Program-made: the position numbers and the translations under genes
The notes under the pieces: generated by a model
The model's database searches: none
What the model saw: only the letters and a program-made list of their open reading frames with translations
What the model was told of the DNA's origin: nothing
Origin: a virus
Strand: one strand, 5' to 3'
DNA length: 58,938 nt
Virus record (IMG/VR): IMGVR_UViG_3300038954_000089
Coordinates: 1 to 58,938 of that record
Part shown: positions 2,435 through 52,041 of the stretch, piece after piece
Layout: each line of letters begins with the position of its first letter
Numbering within the stretch: the first letter of the stretch is position 1

Positions 2435-2893
2435 ATGAAGTACACATTGGCAGTAGCTATTGTAGTGTTCGCGGCACTATTGTTTGCGGGGCAAGCATTT
2501 CCAGCAGGTCCAAAGCAAGACGTTTCCCTCACACTTGCATGGGATTATCCAGCCGAAGGCATAGCGGATGTGTCTTCGTGGGTGTTCTATCGCGCCTTCC
2601 CCGGTACTGAAGATGAAACGGCTTGTGAAGGACTCGAAGGTGCCGTTTGGCACATCGAAGATGCCGTATGTTTGCCGTTTGAAAAGTTTCTTGAGCTTCA
2701 GAAGGAACAGGACAGCACGACATACACACAGGAAGTCGATTTCTCCGACTTTACAGGAGGCGTCGTCTACATCACAATGACGGCCCGTGGAAATGGCGGG
2801 CTACAGAGTGATTATAGCAACATCGTTTCCAAAGACCTTACGTTGCCGGCTGCCCCGGTAATCAACACATTGACATTAGTTGACAATAAGTGA
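2435..2893 (+). CDS. Secreted protein with a fibronectin type III-like domain
   Basis: The 152-residue product has a signal peptide (MKYTLAVAIVVFAALLFAG, cleavage near residue 24). The mature part starts with a VSLTLAWDYP segment and ends with YSNIVSKDLTLPAAP, a strand pattern like FnIII domains. Two Cys residues (near 67 and 81) may form a disulfide in the periplasm. A GGAGAGCATCG stretch precedes the ATG. FnIII domains are common in phage surface proteins and bind carbohydrates or host surfaces. The fold call is by eye only. Confidence 0.65.
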   Translation: MKYTLAVAIVVFAALLFAGQAFPAGPKQDVSLTLAWDYPAEGIADVSSWVFYRAFPGTEDETACEGLEGAVWHIEDAVCLPFEKFLELQKEQDSTTYTQEVDFSDFTGGVVYITMTARGNGGLQSDYSNIVSKDLTLPAAPVINTLTLVDNK

Positions 2894-2899
2894 GGACGT

Positions 2900-3061
2900 A
2901 TGGAATTTATAATTCAAAACTGGGAGTGGTTCCTTTTCGGTTTCATGGTTACCGAGAAGATCGTCAAAATTACACCCGTCAAGTGGGACGATATCATTGT
3001 TGACGGCATCAAGGAGGCGGCCGGTAAAATCGCCGCAAGAAAGGGATTGAAAAATGGGTAA
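2900..3061 (+). CDS. Small amphipathic, membrane-associated protein
   Basis: A 53-residue product with a Trp/Phe-rich hydrophobic N-terminus (QNWEWFLFGFMV) followed by a charged tail containing EKIVKITPVKWDD. Similar short proteins with a KITP-x-K-x-DD motif occur in phage structural or lysis regions, to my recollection, and are usually left unnamed. GAGG lies upstream of the ATG. The stop (3059-3061) overlaps the next start at 3054. A holin-like role is possible but not shown. Confidence 0.6.
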   Translation: MEFIIQNWEWFLFGFMVTEKIVKITPVKWDDIIVDGIKEAAGKIAARKGLKNG

Positions 3062-4082
3062 AAAGTTAGTCCAGATGGAAGCGGCGCGGACGCTTAAGTC
3101 CAAAAGTGAAATGACCGACAGTGGGGACAAAACCGTTTTTACGCTTTCCGGTGTGACGGTCGTCTCTGGAAAGTCCGGTTATGCCCCGGAGGTGTTGCCG
3201 GATGGTGTGCTCGATACGCAGACAATCGGAAGCCCCGGCAGTTCCAACAATGTGCTGAACATTGCAGCGTTCACGGCGCAGCTCGCCGGGGAAACATACA
3301 GCGTTTCAGCCACAACCGTTGACTTGTCGTCAGTAAGGCCGGAAACTGACGTTGCCAAGTGGGTTTCGATCCAACTCGACAGCGACGGATCGACTATCAA
3401 TACTGTGGAAGGCACTGATAGCGCAGATACGTCCTATTTGACCACTCGCGGGACATCGGCCGGGCAGATCCCCTACGTTGTGGATGGTGATATCGAGCTA
3501 TGTTGCGTGCTCTTCACATCCTCGACCGATGCGGTTCTTACCGAATCGCAGATCTATCAGACTGCCAACACATACCAGGACCGTGTGTATTATCCGATTG
3601 TGAAAACCATCTCGAACCTGGGCATGGGCAACAAGGCGCCGGTTTCTGGGAAAAAGAATTTTTACGTGGAATTCAATGCCGCGCTTGAAGCGAAATGCAC
3701 AGGCGACACGACAAAAAACGTCTATGTGACCGCTTACTCCGTGACGACTTTTTCCGACATTTCAAGGACCTACGATTTCGTACCCAATACCCAGTCTTAC
3801 GGACAGGGATCACGGGCCACATATGACGGCGCGGTGAGTTTCGAGACCGACCCTACATTGAATCAGGGCAGCTTTTCCGCCGTGGTAATTGATGGCATCA
3901 CGGATCAGATCGCGCAGGCTGAAGGAGAAACAATGACGTTTCGGTTTTATCCCGATGAGGATGAAAACCCCTACTACCTTCAGCAATCTAAGGTTGGGAT
4001 CACGCCGGCTTATCCGACCAGCGGGGCGAAAACGGTTTCCGTTACGCTTACCGGGGACGCTGCGGTCAAATTCTTTTCATAG
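3054..4082 (+). CDS. Putative major tail tube protein
   Basis: The 342-residue product is rich in Thr, Ser, Val and Gly with a predicted beta fold. It ends with a short Ig-like stretch (SGAKTVSVTLTGDAAVKF), as in many tail tube proteins. The call rests mainly on position: immediately before the frameshifted tail chaperone pair and the tape measure, the standard siphovirus order. AAAGGGA precedes the ATG, which overlaps the previous stop. It has no signal peptide, unlike the genes just upstream. Confidence 0.65.
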   Translation: MGKKLVQMEAARTLKSKSEMTDSGDKTVFTLSGVTVVSGKSGYAPEVLPDGVLDTQTIGSPGSSNNVLNIAAFTAQLAGETYSVSATTVDLSSVRPETDVAKWVSIQLDSDGSTINTVEGTDSADTSYLTTRGTSAGQIPYVVDGDIELCCVLFTSSTDAVLTESQIYQTANTYQDRVYYPIVKTISNLGMGNKAPVSGKKNFYVEFNAALEAKCTGDTTKNVYVTAYSVTTFSDISRTYDFVPNTQSYGQGSRATYDGAVSFETDPTLNQGSFSAVVIDGITDQIAQAEGETMTFRFYPDEDENPYYLQQSKVGITPAYPTSGAKTVSVTLTGDAAVKFFS

Positions 4083-47184: not shown

Positions 47185-47206
47185 AAACAACTACAGGAGG
47201 TTGAAA

Positions 47207-47938
47207 ATGGGTATAATTTACACACCGAGAGGCAGGGCGCAGGAATATTCACCTTTGGCGGCTAATTTGTTTTCAGGATGCGTCCATGGATGCAAGTATT
47301 GTTATGCTCCGGCTTGTTTGAGGCGAAAGCCGGAAGATTTCCACGGAAAAACTATTGTCAGGAAAGATGTTCTCGATATTATTGAAAAGGACTTGAAGAA
47401 AATTCAACCCAGCCTTTTTGATGACGATTTACCGCCAGTTTTGCTTTGTTTTACGACTGATCCGTATCAGCCGAACGAAAGTAAAGAAATCACACGACAG
47501 GCTTTAGAGCTTTTCAGGTGGTACGATTACCCATTCCAGGTATTGACCAAGGGCGGCATGAGGGCGGCGCTGGATTTTGATTTATTCTCAGGAAAAGACG
47601 CTTTTGCGTCAACCCTTACCTTTTTAGATGAATCTTTGTCAAAAGAGTGGGAACCTTTCGCCGCGAGTCCATCCGACAGGATTGAGGCCATAAAACTTGC
47701 GAAACAAAAAGGCATCCATACATGGGTATCGTTTGAGCCGGTTCTTGATGCTGATCAAGTTTTTCAGCTTTATGAAGCCACAAAGGATTTTGTCGATCTT
47801 TATAAGGTCGGGAAATGCTCTGGCACATATTCCAATGTAATAGATTGGGCCGCATTCGCCGGAGAAATTATTCGTCGAATGGAAGATGATGGCAAAAACT
47901 ATTACATCAAAAATGATCTTAGGAAGCACATAGAATAA
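47207..47938 (+). CDS. Radical SAM protein (spore photoproduct lyase-like)
   Basis: The 243-residue product has the iron-sulfur motif C25-x3-C29-x2-C32 (CVHGCKYC), followed by LCFTTDPYQPNE, FQVLTKGG and TWVSFEPVLD, as in SplB-like/Rv2578c-type radical SAM proteins found in phages. AGGAGG lies 7 bases before the ATG. It could repair DNA lesions, in line with the dimer glycosylase at 27433, but other reactions are possible. It is coupled to the terminase genes. Confidence 0.78.
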   Translation: MGIIYTPRGRAQEYSPLAANLFSGCVHGCKYCYAPACLRRKPEDFHGKTIVRKDVLDIIEKDLKKIQPSLFDDDLPPVLLCFTTDPYQPNESKEITRQALELFRWYDYPFQVLTKGGMRAALDFDLFSGKDAFASTLTFLDESLSKEWEPFAASPSDRIEAIKLAKQKGIHTWVSFEPVLDADQVFQLYEATKDFVDLYKVGKCSGTYSNVIDWAAFAGEIIRRMEDDGKNYYIKNDLRKHIE

Positions 47939-48312
47939 TGCCTGCTGGAAGGCCGAAAAAACAAATCAACCTCGACGAAGCGGCGAAGCTGTGTAGCCTG
48001 CAATGTACCCTTTCCGAAATCGCCGGCTTTTTTGGTATCGATGAAGACACCGTACAGGCCAGGATAAGAGATGCTGGATATGACAATTTTTCGGCCTTCT
48101 ATAAAAAGCATTCCCACGGCGGGAAAATAAGTCTCAGGAGAAATCAGTTTAAGCTATCTGAGAAGAGCGCGGCCATGGCCATTTGGCTCGGCAAGCAATA
48201 TCTATGGCAATCTGATTATCCGAATCAAGAATTTGATGAAGAGATGGATGATGGTTTTTTTGACGCCTTGAACGACACCGCGCAGGAAGTGTTCGACGAT
48301 GGCGACGAATAA
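47938..48312 (+). CDS. Terminase small subunit
   Basis: The 124-residue product starts with PAGRPKKQINLDEAAKLCSLQCTLSEIAGFFGI, an HTH typical of small terminase subunits. An acidic end (QEFDEEMDDGFFDALND) would bind the large subunit. It sits right before TerL and overlaps it by 14 bases. Confidence 0.85.
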   Translation: MPAGRPKKQINLDEAAKLCSLQCTLSEIAGFFGIDEDTVQARIRDAGYDNFSAFYKKHSHGGKISLRRNQFKLSEKSAAMAIWLGKQYLWQSDYPNQEFDEEMDDGFFDALNDTAQEVFDDGDE

Positions 48313-50632
48313 GCGAGATCAAGCCCGTCCATTCAAGTGGGGGACGTTATCCCGGAAAGCCAAGCAGGCGCTTACCTGGTGGGTTGATTCGTCGCCGCAT
48401 CGGCACAAGGATATTTTTATCGCCGATGGTGCGGTCCGGTCGTCGAAATCCTTGTGTGTTTCATCTGCTTTTGTCGATTGGGCGATGGAGCGGTTTTCCG
48501 GGGAGTTGTTCGGTATGGCAGGTAAGACCATCGGATCATTTCGTCAAAATGTTCTGCGGGATTTAAAGCGCGTTATGGTTGGGCGGGGGTACACGTTCAA
48601 GGACCGGCGATCCGAGAACGTTTTGGAAGTATCCAAAGGCCGCCGTGTCAATGAATTTGAAATATTCGGCGGGAAAGATGAAGCAAGCCAGGATTTGATC
48701 CAGGGGCGGACGCTGGCCGGTTTTCTCGGTGACGAGGCAGCTCTTTATCCGCAGTCGTTTCTGAAGCAGGCGATGGCGCGATGCTCGGTTGACGGATCGA
48801 AAATATGGTTGACGTGCAATCCTGGACCGCCGCAGCACCCAATCAAAAAAGAGTTGATCGACCGTGCCAAAGAGTTGAATCTGCTTCATATCCACTTTAC
48901 CCTCGATGACAACCTCACCTTAACGGAATCCATCAAGAATCGGTACAAAGCACTGTATTCCGGTCTTTTTTTTAAGCGGTTCATTCTTGGCCTATGGGTC
49001 ATGGCCGACGGAATCATTTATGATATGTTCGATCCAGACCGGCATATAGTTGATGATGTGGATTTGACGGGATGGAATCAGCTTATATCCGGTGTCGATT
49101 ATGGCATCGGAAACCCGACAACATGGGATGAAACATGGACGGACGGTGAACGGTTCCACGTTGCGCGGGAATATTATCATTCATCCGGTGTGACCGGACG
49201 GCAGATGACGGATGATGAATATGCGGATGAATTCGATGCTTTCTGGGGAGAAAGACGGCCGGACAAGGTTTACATCGACCCGTCGGCCGCGTCGCTGAAA
49301 TTGGCATTGCAGAACCGTGGATATTCGATATTTTCAGCGGACAATGACGTGCTGGAGGGGATCAAGTATGTATCGACGCTTTTGCATACCGGAAAATTGA
49401 CGTTTTCACCGAGTTGCCACAACCTGATTGAGGAAATGGGTTCATATATTTGGGACGCCAATGCCCAAAAGCGCGGAGAAGATAAGCCGTTGAAGGCGAT
49501 GGACCATTGTTTTGCGGCTGGAACTATGGTCGAAACAATCAATGGAGAGGTGCCGATAGAAGAGATAGTGGAGGGCGACTTGGTTTTAACGTCGCAAGGG
49601 TTCAAGAACGTTTTGTCTTCTGGCATAACGTCAAAAAATGCAGAGGTATTCGATTTCTTGATGCCTAACGATACAGTTTTAATTGCAACAAAAGGACACC
49701 CGGTGTATACTGAATGCAATGGATTTGTTGAAATATCAAACCTTAAAAAGGGGGATGTTTTAAAATGCCTTTGCAAGCAGAAACACAGGAGTTTAACGGA
49801 ATCGTGTATAGACGTTATCCAGAATCAGAAACAATGTCAGATCGGCGGTATTTTAGGTGTAATTCAAACCATTTTGAAAAGGGCTTACGATATTTGCATC
49901 GAGACATTTGGAAGTTTCATTACGGAGAAATACCGAATGGACACCATATCCACCACATCGATGGGGACTTTTCAAATAACTCCATCGAAAACTTACGGCT
50001 TGTCCATGCCTCTGAGCACTTATCAGAACACGGAAAGAAAGGGTGGGAAAATAGGATCGAAGAAGGGCTTAAACGTCTCGAAGAAATCAGGCCGCTTGCC
50101 GCTAAGTGGCATAGCAGCGAAGAAGGTAAAAAATGGCATTCTGAACATGCCAAAAAAGTTTTTGGCAATCTTCCGTATAGACGGTCGTCGTGTGAGGTTT
50201 GCGGGAAAGAATACGAAACAAAGAGACCGGATTTGTCAAGATTTTGCTCCAATAACTGCAAATCAAAATTCAGGAGAATGTCAGGCATTGACGACATTGC
50301 AAGGCAATGTAAAAGATGTGGGAAAGAGTTTGTTATTAACAAATACAGCAAGACGATCTTTTGTTCAGGCCGTTGTGCAAAAAAATATCATTGGGGAAAA
50401 TAAGCGAACGGCAACGGTTTACAATTTGACTGTTGATAATTGCCCGGAGTTTTTTGCCAATGGGGTATTGGTTCATAATTGTCAGGATCGCACTCGCTAC
50501 GCCCTATTTTCGCATTCTGGCAAATGGGCAAGAACTCCTCTTTCATACGCCGGAGCGGATCAAGGCCAAACAGCGACCACTCGGAAAGATGGCAAGCAAC
50601 GACCTACCCGCAGAATGCGAGGATTGAGATAA
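48299..50632 (+). CDS. Terminase large subunit precursor containing an intein
   Basis: A 777-residue precursor. The N-extein (1-403) has Walker A GAVRSSKS (44-51), Walker B-like FLGDEAALY (about 145), then nuclease motifs SGVDYG (about 265) and KVYIDPSAAS. The intein covers residues 404-727. The C-extein (728-777) starts CQDRTRYALF, completing the nuclease motif AMDH-CQD. Splicing would leave a 453-residue enzyme, normal for phage terminases. A separate HNH gene lies inside the intein in another frame. Confidence 0.92.
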   Translation: MATNKRDQARPFKWGTLSRKAKQALTWWVDSSPHRHKDIFIADGAVRSSKSLCVSSAFVDWAMERFSGELFGMAGKTIGSFRQNVLRDLKRVMVGRGYTFKDRRSENVLEVSKGRRVNEFEIFGGKDEASQDLIQGRTLAGFLGDEAALYPQSFLKQAMARCSVDGSKIWLTCNPGPPQHPIKKELIDRAKELNLLHIHFTLDDNLTLTESIKNRYKALYSGLFFKRFILGLWVMADGIIYDMFDPDRHIVDDVDLTGWNQLISGVDYGIGNPTTWDETWTDGERFHVAREYYHSSGVTGRQMTDDEYADEFDAFWGERRPDKVYIDPSAASLKLALQNRGYSIFSADNDVLEGIKYVSTLLHTGKLTFSPSCHNLIEEMGSYIWDANAQKRGEDKPLKAMDHCFAAGTMVETINGEVPIEEIVEGDLVLTSQGFKNVLSSGITSKNAEVFDFLMPNDTVLIATKGHPVYTECNGFVEISNLKKGDVLKCLCKQKHRSLTESCIDVIQNQKQCQIGGILGVIQTILKRAYDICIETFGSFITEKYRMDTISTTSMGTFQITPSKTYGLSMPLSTYQNTERKGGKIGSKKGLNVSKKSGRLPLSGIAAKKVKNGILNMPKKFLAIFRIDGRRVRFAGKNTKQRDRICQDFAPITANQNSGECQALTTLQGNVKDVGKSLLLTNTARRSFVQAVVQKNIIGENKRTATVYNLTVDNCPEFFANGVLVHNCQDRTRYALFSHSGKWARTPLSYAGADQGQTATTRKDGKQRPTRRMRGLR
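49508..50479 (+). mobile_element. Intein in the terminase nuclease motif
   Basis: A 324-codon intein with block A CFAAGTMVET (Cys1), block B with TKGHPVYT, and block F ending VYNLTVDNCPEFFANGVLVHN before Cys+1. His-Asn at the end and Cys on both sides indicate standard class 1 splicing. The middle (about residues 90-300 of the intein) has no endonuclease in this frame; it is the shadow of the HNH gene at 49765-50403. Confidence 0.92.
49765..50403 (+). CDS. HNH homing endonuclease nested in the intein in another frame
   Basis: The 212-residue product has a classical HNH domain (YLHRDIWKFHYGEIPNG, HHIHHIDGDFSNNSIENLRLVHASEH) and two C-terminal treble-clef zinc sites (CEVCGKEY...FCSNNCK and CKRCGKEF...FCSGRCA). 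Its frame differs from the terminase-intein frame, and both stay open for 639 bases. AAGGGGGAT lies about 10 bases before the ATG, so it can be translated on its own. It would cut intein-free terminase genes and spread the intein. Confidence 0.9.
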   Translation: MPLQAETQEFNGIVYRRYPESETMSDRRYFRCNSNHFEKGLRYLHRDIWKFHYGEIPNGHHIHHIDGDFSNNSIENLRLVHASEHLSEHGKKGWENRIEEGLKRLEEIRPLAAKWHSSEEGKKWHSEHAKKVFGNLPYRRSSCEVCGKEYETKRPDLSRFCSNNCKSKFRRMSGIDDIARQCKRCGKEFVINKYSKTIFCSGRCAKKYHWGK

Positions 50633-52041
50633 TGGGTATCCGTCAACGCATAGCGCGACTACTTGCACCCAACCTGATCGAGCGGAAAGAACTTGACGCC
50701 ATTGTTGCGGAAAAGGTTTTGCAAGCGCAACAGGCCATCCCGGCTTTCCGTGATTACGACAAAAACAATCAGGGATTCAGGCCGCTATCGGGCATTGAGG
50801 GACATAAACGGGACCTGTCGCCGATCTCCCAAACGCAGATGATTGAGTCGGCATATTACTATTTCGACACGTCCGGGCTCGTGAGGCGATTTATCCGGGA
50901 TACTCGGAACTTCACGGTGGGGAAGGGGTTCGAGTGGAGGGTCGAAAACGACACAGAAGACGGCCAAGCCCGGCAGGTATTGGTTGATTTTTGGGATTCG
51001 TTTTACAACGGTTGGGGCCGTCTTTTCGATGAGCGGATCGACACATGGTATTTGCTCGGCGAGATCGCACTCGCAATCGACGTGAATAAATTTAATGGGT
51101 CCGTCACGATATCTGACATCGATCCGGCGAACATTAACGATGTGCTGACGGTTCGGTCATTCCCAGGAATACCAGCGGCGCTTGAATTGGCAGGATCGCG
51201 GACATCTGTTAATAAGGCCGTGGTCCGTGAGGACCTCCAACCAACGTCGCGTACATACAAGCGGCTGGTCGGGGAGGTGTTTTTCGAGGCGCTAAACAAG
51301 ACGCCGACTGCATCCCGTGGACGGTCTGATCTGCTGACGGTTTTCGATTTTATCGATTCTTTGGAGCAGGGGCTTTTCGATGAATTGGATCGGTCCCGGT
51401 TTATGAAAAACTTTATCTGGGACATCACAATTGAAGGTGCCACCCAAGCAGAGATCGACGAATATGCCGCAAAGCAGGGGCCGCCTGACCCAGGGTCTGG
51501 GCGGTACCACAATGAGCGAGTTAAGTGGGAGGCGGTTACACCGGATTTGAAAGCGGCCGACAACAAAGCCCTGTATGATACGATCAAGAGCTATGTCGCC
51601 GCTTCACAAAATCGCCCTGACTCATGGCTCGGCGGAGGCGGGAAAGCCTATCAGACAGAGGCCGATTTGATGGGCGAGCCGACTTTTATGGATCTGGAAT
51701 CCCGTCAGAACAGGAATAAACTTTTCCTCCATGACATGGCGCGGTACGTTATCGATCAGGCTGTGATTCACAAGGCGATCCCGAACGGCGATTACAAGAT
51801 CAGCGTTGACACGCCGGATTTGTCGAAAAAAGACATTGCTTCCGTTGCATCGGCATTGCCTCAGTTGTCTAATGCCCTGTCGATGGCCGTAGAGCAGGGA
51901 TGGTGCAGGCGCGAAACGGCAACCCGGATATGGGCGTCACTCGCCAGCGAGACGGGCGTTGACGTGGACCCGGAGGCTGAAATTGAAGCACAACCGGAAC
52001 CAGGCAGCGGAGAAGAACAGGTTACGAAGGACTATCAATGA
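50632..52041 (+). CDS. Portal protein
   Basis: A 469-residue product between terminase and head morphogenesis genes. Portal-type segments are visible: RKELDAIVAEKV, FIRDTRNFTVGKGFEWRV (wing/stem region), RGRSDLLTVFDFIDSLEQ and FLHDMARYVIDQAVIHK. The start at 50632 shares a base with the TerL stop (TAATG). The protein forms the dodecameric channel of the head. Confidence 0.88.
   Translation: MGIRQRIARLLAPNLIERKELDAIVAEKVLQAQQAIPAFRDYDKNNQGFRPLSGIEGHKRDLSPISQTQMIESAYYYFDTSGLVRRFIRDTRNFTVGKGFEWRVENDTEDGQARQVLVDFWDSFYNGWGRLFDERIDTWYLLGEIALAIDVNKFNGSVTISDIDPANINDVLTVRSFPGIPAALELAGSRTSVNKAVVREDLQPTSRTYKRLVGEVFFEALNKTPTASRGRSDLLTVFDFIDSLEQGLFDELDRSRFMKNFIWDITIEGATQAEIDEYAAKQGPPDPGSGRYHNERVKWEAVTPDLKAADNKALYDTIKSYVAASQNRPDSWLGGGGKAYQTEADLMGEPTFMDLESRQNRNKLFLHDMARYVIDQAVIHKAIPNGDYKISVDTPDLSKKDIASVASALPQLSNALSMAVEQGWCRRETATRIWASLASETGVDVDPEAEIEAQPEPGSGEEQVTKDYQ

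Follow-up and report, generated by a model that had tools for sequence, protein, structure and literature searches.

An HNH endonuclease gene in a second reading frame of a viral terminase intein: a candidate dual-coding mobile element

How could a single stretch of DNA encode an intein and, in another frame of the same strand, a complete endonuclease? This question is raised by the large terminase gene (terL) of the IMG/VR virus record IMGVR_UViG_3300038954_000089, which was analysed over its whole 58,938 bases (hereafter the window). There, an intein frame at 49508-50479 and an HNH gene at 49765-50403 are both open in different frames, exactly at the coordinates put forward in an earlier sequence-only reading of this DNA (hereafter the original prediction). 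Lying between the genes for the small terminase and the portal protein, terL is a single open reading frame (ORF) of 777 codons, of which 403 encode extein, 324 intein and 50 again extein, and its N-extein matches the PBSX-type large terminase (TIGR01547, 4.4e-44). The HNH ATG lies 257 nucleotides from the intein Cys codon (2 mod 3), i.e. in the -1 frame relative to the intein. The features of the locus are the following, the confidence of predicted structures being given as predicted local distance difference test (pLDDT) values.

48299-50632 (+): terL ORF, precursor of 777 residues composed of TerL N-extein, intein and TerL C-extein (TIGR01547, PHROG TerL families)
48299-49507 (+): TerL N-extein, ending in KAMDH right ahead of the nuclease-domain motif D-H/x-x-D-x-x-R-Y (alignment of intein-less relatives)
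49508-50479 (+): intein of 324 residues, from Cys1 to His323-Asn324 and followed by Cys+1 (Hint_2, PT-HINT, Intein_splicing, TIGR01443; Hint fold at both ends)
49508-49771 (+): N-terminal Hint half, with block A CFAAGT and block B ATKGHPVY (pLDDT 90-98 over residues 1-88; invariant T61, H64 and C1, the last partly by construction)
49766-50402 (+): shadow linker joining the Hint halves, i.e. the intein-frame reading of the HNH region, low-complexity and disordered (pLDDT about 44-56)
50414-50479 (+): C-terminal Hint half (VYNLTVDNCPEFFANGVLVHN), ending in FFANGVLVHN and followed by Cys+1 (TIGR01443; pLDDT 96-98 over the last 24 residues)
50480-50632 (+): TerL C-extein from Cys+1 (CQDRTRY...; alignment across the junction)
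49765-50403 (+): predicted HNH endonuclease gene of 212 residues, -1 frame relative to the intein, ATG to TAA (HNH_3 3.7e-17; PHROG 15471 HNH 2.4e-40; pLDDT 96)
49888-50019 (+): HNH catalytic domain with invariant H63, H64, N72, N76 and H85 (conserved columns)
50191-50259 (+): first Cys4 zinc finger of the HNH protein, C143, C146, C161 and C165 (invariant or nearly invariant columns)
50308-50376 (+): second Cys4 zinc finger of the HNH protein, C182, C185, C200 and C204 (from the sequence; aligned in longer family members)

The answer proposed here, with a probability of roughly 85%, is a dual-coding mobile intein, where TerL would be spliced in cis and an HNH homing endonuclease would arise from internal initiation. 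Frame 0 would give the TerL precursor, whose Hint halves, connected by a long disordered linker, would assemble with each other and remove the intein by cis splicing, so that the TerL nuclease motif is made whole again. From its own ATG within the intein, the -1 frame would give a separate I-HmuI-like zinc-finger HNH endonuclease cutting intein-free terL alleles, with repair copying in the entire intein. Selection would then preserve the HNH frame, the intein frame being merely kept stop-free over that region.

Searching the two frames separately against protein databases, as had been suggested, recovered Hint_2, PT-HINT and TIGR01443 in the intein frame and HNH_3 in the HNH frame. Hint_2 and PT-HINT exceed the Pfam cut-off, Intein_splicing falls below it and TIGR01443 matches the intein C-terminus; these Pfam/NCBIfam matches of the intein frame are mostly weak, but concordant. 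All the residues of a class 1 intein are present, namely Cys1, TxxH in block B, the C-terminal His-Asn and, at +1, a Cys as one of the residues allowed there (Cys, Ser or Thr). In the AlphaFold model of the intein frame (60 homologous sequences, from alignments of the window and family loci), residues 1-88 and the last ~24 adopt the Hint fold at pLDDT 90-98, and the ~190-residue shadow linker (91-280) is disordered at about 44-56, edge blocks excepted. With Foldseek, inteins come out on top for this model (gp41-1 at 5.7e-6, probability 1.00). Regarding the HNH frame, modelled at pLDDT 96, the nearest solved structure is I-HmuI (1u3e, profile match 7e-4), and the nested protein has the predicted make-up of an I-HmuI-like HNH enzyme, that is an HNH motif, intact catalytic residues and DNA-binding appendages. 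Similarity of the shadow stretch to the HNH profile is not detectable. The dual-frame intein of the original prediction was thus recovered: one frame encodes the two Hint halves and, between them, a shadow linker that is not homologous, while the HNH is complete in a different frame. The precursor is one unbroken 777-codon ORF, not a split intein with N and C halves on separate ORFs, and the endonuclease lies in the -1 frame, not in frame as in a bifunctional intein. A group I intron was also considered and rejected, as neither group I introns nor any other Rfam family gave a match up to E = 1 over 48000-52000.

Is this layout peculiar to the window? It is the comparison with relatives that provides the decisive evidence. 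Near-identical DNA of the locus was not found in phage records, sensitive blastn included. At the protein level, a tblastn search of phage records with the intein frame gave 100% query cover in four loci (Tetrasphaera phage TJE1, Acinetobacter phage Highwayman, Rhodobacteraceae phage LS06-2018-MD07 and a human-gut contig), and the HNH query matched the same four loci, every time at an offset of 2 mod 3. Those of the records that are annotated list nothing but a terminase at this place. The same -1 nesting occurs in an archaeal replicon, the Halobacterium plasmid pGSL19_54.9, a complete RefSeq record. By scanning contigs of viruses and of genomes, 270 loci were collected, which collapse at ~95% HNH identity to 185 HNH relatives. 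Among the latter, 144 (window included; a share of a family-seeded sample) have the HNH gene in -1 to an uninterrupted Hint/TerL frame starting with the N-terminal Hint half. A comparison with related terminase inteins had been called for by the original prediction. Three of the 185 show the opposite overlap phase (L128, L133 and L160) and three carry stops in the -1 layout, the remainder being fractured, in frame or devoid of a Hint half. When the scan was seeded by the window HNH alone, with less architecture bias, 17 of 28 non-redundant relatives were -1 nested. For 144 loci, 141 of them in the -1 phase and 3 in the opposite one, intein boundaries were assigned by a script demanding Cys at position 1 and Asn at the end, residues whose conservation is consequently in part by construction. 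The exteins belong to 17 or more PHROG terminase families. Among the insertion sites are the C-terminal nuclease motif, a motif resembling G-x-D-x-G (L209) and, by appearance, the ATPase region (L144, L154). Two two-frame inteins may even sit at different motifs of one terL, as seen in L209 (1732-2625 and 3001-3927) and L154 (112-939 and 1801-2709).

Could the second frame be open by chance? The original prediction put this chance at about 4 in 100,000, which is too strong for a single locus because the -1 overlap phase is intrinsically stop-poor: an intein-frame stop requires an HNH codon ending in TA or TG followed by a codon starting with A or G, and only 3-4 stops are expected at the window locus. 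Once synonymous codons of the window HNH are permuted, the intein frame is stop-free in 0.7% of trials, and in 0.5% when codons are resampled by phage codon usage. Across the window HNH gene, the third frame contains 19 stops and the intein frame none. For the -1 nested set as a whole, the absence of stops in the HNH +1 frame is the class definition, hence circular, against 1.9 expected; the first of three non-circular counts is that, where a Hint half is present in the -1 phase, the frame is open in 144 of 147 cases. Relatives without a Hint half have a mean of ~6 stops in the HNH +1 frame, matching random synonymous recoding, and 4-12 are found in annotated standalone relatives located by terS or terL (BP10, EauM-23, CL2 and PAE1). 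The second non-circular count comes from the three phase-switched loci, with 0 stops in the +2 frame for 11-13 expected and with 7-10 in the +1 frame. The third is that nested HNH genes avoid Met ahead of a codon with A as its first base (0 of 188), a combination that would read TGA in the intein frame and that is present in relatives without Hint (23 of 59). Taken over phase-switched, Hint-less and standalone relatives, the stop pattern indicates that openness tracks the intein frame instead of being inherent in the HNH sequence; on these counts, family-wide openness is far beyond chance.

Regarding which of the two frames selection maintains, diverged pairs have amino-acid identities in the HNH and shadow frames of 0.92/0.76, 0.84/0.68, 0.74/0.43 and 0.72/0.48, respectively, the HNH protein being the better conserved one each time. 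At fourfold sites of the HNH frame, each a second codon position when read in the shadow, 80 of 322 are different vs. 55 of 177 in the Hint half (Fisher p 0.14). A functional shadow peptide was rejected on account of the disorder predicted by AlphaFold and of an HNH synonymous divergence about as high as in the Hint half; together, disorder and free synonymous divergence support stop avoidance alone, and the shadow behaves as a passive linker constrained only against stops.

As for mobility, empty sites exist, since all 45 intein-less TerL relatives examined align unbroken across the KAMDH|C junction. Between L002 and L003, which come from different metagenomes, the intein is 98.5% identical at the nucleotide level vs. 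84% for terL upstream and 78% for downstream DNA, and between L135 and L148 it is 86% identical vs. 65% and 55% in the flanks. Such contrasts are what one would expect if the element had recently been transferred as a whole.

Some points weigh against the dual-coding mobile intein. The ribosome site in the window is weak, consisting of a purine run only, a recognisable one is absent at about half of the family starts, the Foldseek match of the HNH model to I-HmuI 1u3e is weak (E 0.17), and the 144 loci, found by family-seeded searches, make up a share that is not a population frequency. The analysis shows the sequence anatomy, the conservation of the overlap and its independence of phase, the predicted folds, the empty sites and the transfer of the element as a unit; splicing, translation of the HNH by internal initiation and DNA cleavage are inferred.

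Another role for the HNH protein would be to serve packaging together with TerL instead of homing, the intein being a mere shelter. Standalone HNH genes of the family do adjoin terL in PAE1, CL2, EauM-23 and BP10, and HNH proteins reportedly aid packaging in some phages (Kala et al. 2014, as cited in PMC10448857). This is nonetheless quite unlikely considering the patchy distribution of the element, which many TerL relatives lack, its movement as a unit across diverged terL genes and into several insertion sites, and an I-HmuI-like zinc-finger architecture, all of which fit homing.

The manner in which the HNH protein would be made can be approached from two features around its start codon.

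49745-49754 (+): run of purines (AAAAAGGGGG) ahead of the HNH start codon, a possible weak ribosome site (from the sequence; fails a strict Shine-Dalgarno criterion)
49759-49765 (+): intein-frame heptamer T TTA AAA just before the HNH start codon, where a -1 slip is possible in theory (from the sequence)

Programmed -1 frameshifting at the latter would produce a fusion of the TerL N-terminal part, the N-terminal Hint half and the HNH, and it has in its favour that the slippery heptamer of the window is perfect, in frame and placed right at the HNH ATG. Across the family, however, slippery heptamers near the start are not enriched (18 of 138, 13%, vs. 11% elsewhere in terL), the HNH frame opens a median of only 12 nucleotides upstream of the start, and phase-switched members would require another shift. 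An ATG occupies the homologous start place in 131 of 141 members, and a Shine-Dalgarno match of at least 5 nucleotides is found at 33% of family starts vs. 7% at other same-frame ATGs. Because the ATG is conserved, the Shine-Dalgarno enriched and the heptamers not, internal initiation is favoured over frameshifting, which appears quite unlikely, and the T TTA AAA beside the window ATG is probably fortuitous. The ribosome site claimed for this HNH gene is just a purine run in the window itself, a weak start signal, and the start-codon and Shine-Dalgarno statistics suggest that splicing and homing would be expressed separately.

The HNH ORF might also be a decayed remnant whose expression has been lost, as the weak ribosome site in the window would allow; this is very unlikely given that the catalytic residues of both intein and HNH and the zinc-binding residues of the latter are intact, that the HNH model reaches pLDDT 96 and that, in related pairs, the HNH frame is the more conserved one. 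Finally, two compensating sequencing or assembly indels displacing an ordinary in-frame HNH intein, the refutation that the original prediction had itself named and that the homopolymers bordering the overlap (TTTTAAAA and A7) could have favoured, can be dismissed, as the overlap recurs in isolate phages, a complete archaeal plasmid and more than 100 diverged contigs, in two phases, and as intein-frame stops are avoided only by members with the intact two-frame layout.

How does the dual-coding mobile intein compare with known systems? Fractured genes, where split inteins are said to have a free-standing endonuclease between their halves, share an endonuclease ORF that lies between Hint halves and would be translated separately, a layout seen in terL with relatives of this HNH (L012, L119, L183, L184 and L187 among others); here, in contrast, the precursor frame is unbroken and overlapped by the endonuclease gene, and splicing would occur in cis. 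Closest among published cases is the ShiLan domain, where a methylase gene contains an HNH out of frame and where the authors find no splicing domain, expect no splicing and detected no Shine-Dalgarno signal (PMC11855218). Both have a free zinc-finger HNH out of frame, an open host frame and a patchy homing-like distribution, whereas in the present element the HNH is bordered by canonical Hint halves, the essential terL serves as host and Shine-Dalgarno matches are enriched. In mycobacteriophages, TerL inteins have an in-frame endonuclease and are located in the ATPase domain (Kelley et al. 2016, PMC5050341); host, Hint splicing and a homing endonuclease at the conserved position between Hint blocks are alike, but in the present case the endonuclease lies outside the intein polypeptide and the nuclease domain is interrupted. 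With group I introns of the I-HmuI type, the element has in common a related HNH and an ORF that would be expressed apart from the host frame, yet Rfam matches are absent at the locus and removal would take place at the protein level. The original prediction knew of no such arrangement, which has to be qualified: an out-of-frame HNH in a host gene is published (PMC11855218), and the literature search found no paper on an out-of-frame endonuclease nested in a splicing intein. Inteins with a homing endonuclease are known, and what sets this one apart is its two-frame coding and its wide spread.

Within terL, this HNH family occurs in four states, namely two-frame inteins, fractured inteins, one in-frame intein (L028/L029) and standalone genes by terL. 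Fractured terL genes with successive N-Hint, HNH and C-Hint ORFs, the HNH being of the same family, were seen in L012, L119, L109, L114, L183, L184, L187, L147, L142 and L167. L186, with a single intein-frame stop, and L177, with a frame break within the N-terminal Hint half, are two-frame inteins otherwise intact, which are either intermediates toward split inteins or assembly errors. In a FastTree phylogeny, unrooted, with many weak forks, sampled from family-derived patterns and from which no direction of change can be read, the states are clustered yet interleaved (20 changes vs. a shuffled mean of 36.7). Hypothetically, two-frame inteins might be a source of split inteins. At somewhat less than even odds, a broader proposal is that two-frame inteins constitute a widespread and unrecognised class of mobile elements in bacterial and archaeal viruses, in either phase, where a single linker stop would leave a split intein and a free endonuclease, a possible route to split inteins.

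Such an arrangement would be a new solution to the design problem of inteins: splicing and homing are uncoupled while the host gene stays in one piece, and the price is a second frame kept stop-free. The two phases, together with standalone and fractured relatives, provide a large natural set for measuring overlapping-gene constraint, and the element offers a testable route to natural split inteins. In terms of annotation, the nested HNH genes are missing from NC_019930.1 (TJE1), OZ038341.1 (Highwayman) and NZ_CP070376.1 (Halobacterium plasmid), which do annotate the terminase or Hint gene (in the plasmid, terL as one gene). Numbers given for phage 'mini-inteins' without an endonuclease may accordingly be overestimates.

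Two minor observations can be added. In L185 (HNH 2854-3528, tail 3347-3592), L174 and L103, a standalone HNH gene lies just past an intact terL, and the ORF after it ends in a second stretch similar to the terL C-terminus, possibly a reconstitution of the target at the DNA level. In the window, an ORF of 245 codons directly ahead of the small terminase gene (47201-47938; PHROG function unknown) has two CxxxCxxC-like cysteine motifs in the style of radical SAM enzymes (SGCVHGCKYCYAP).
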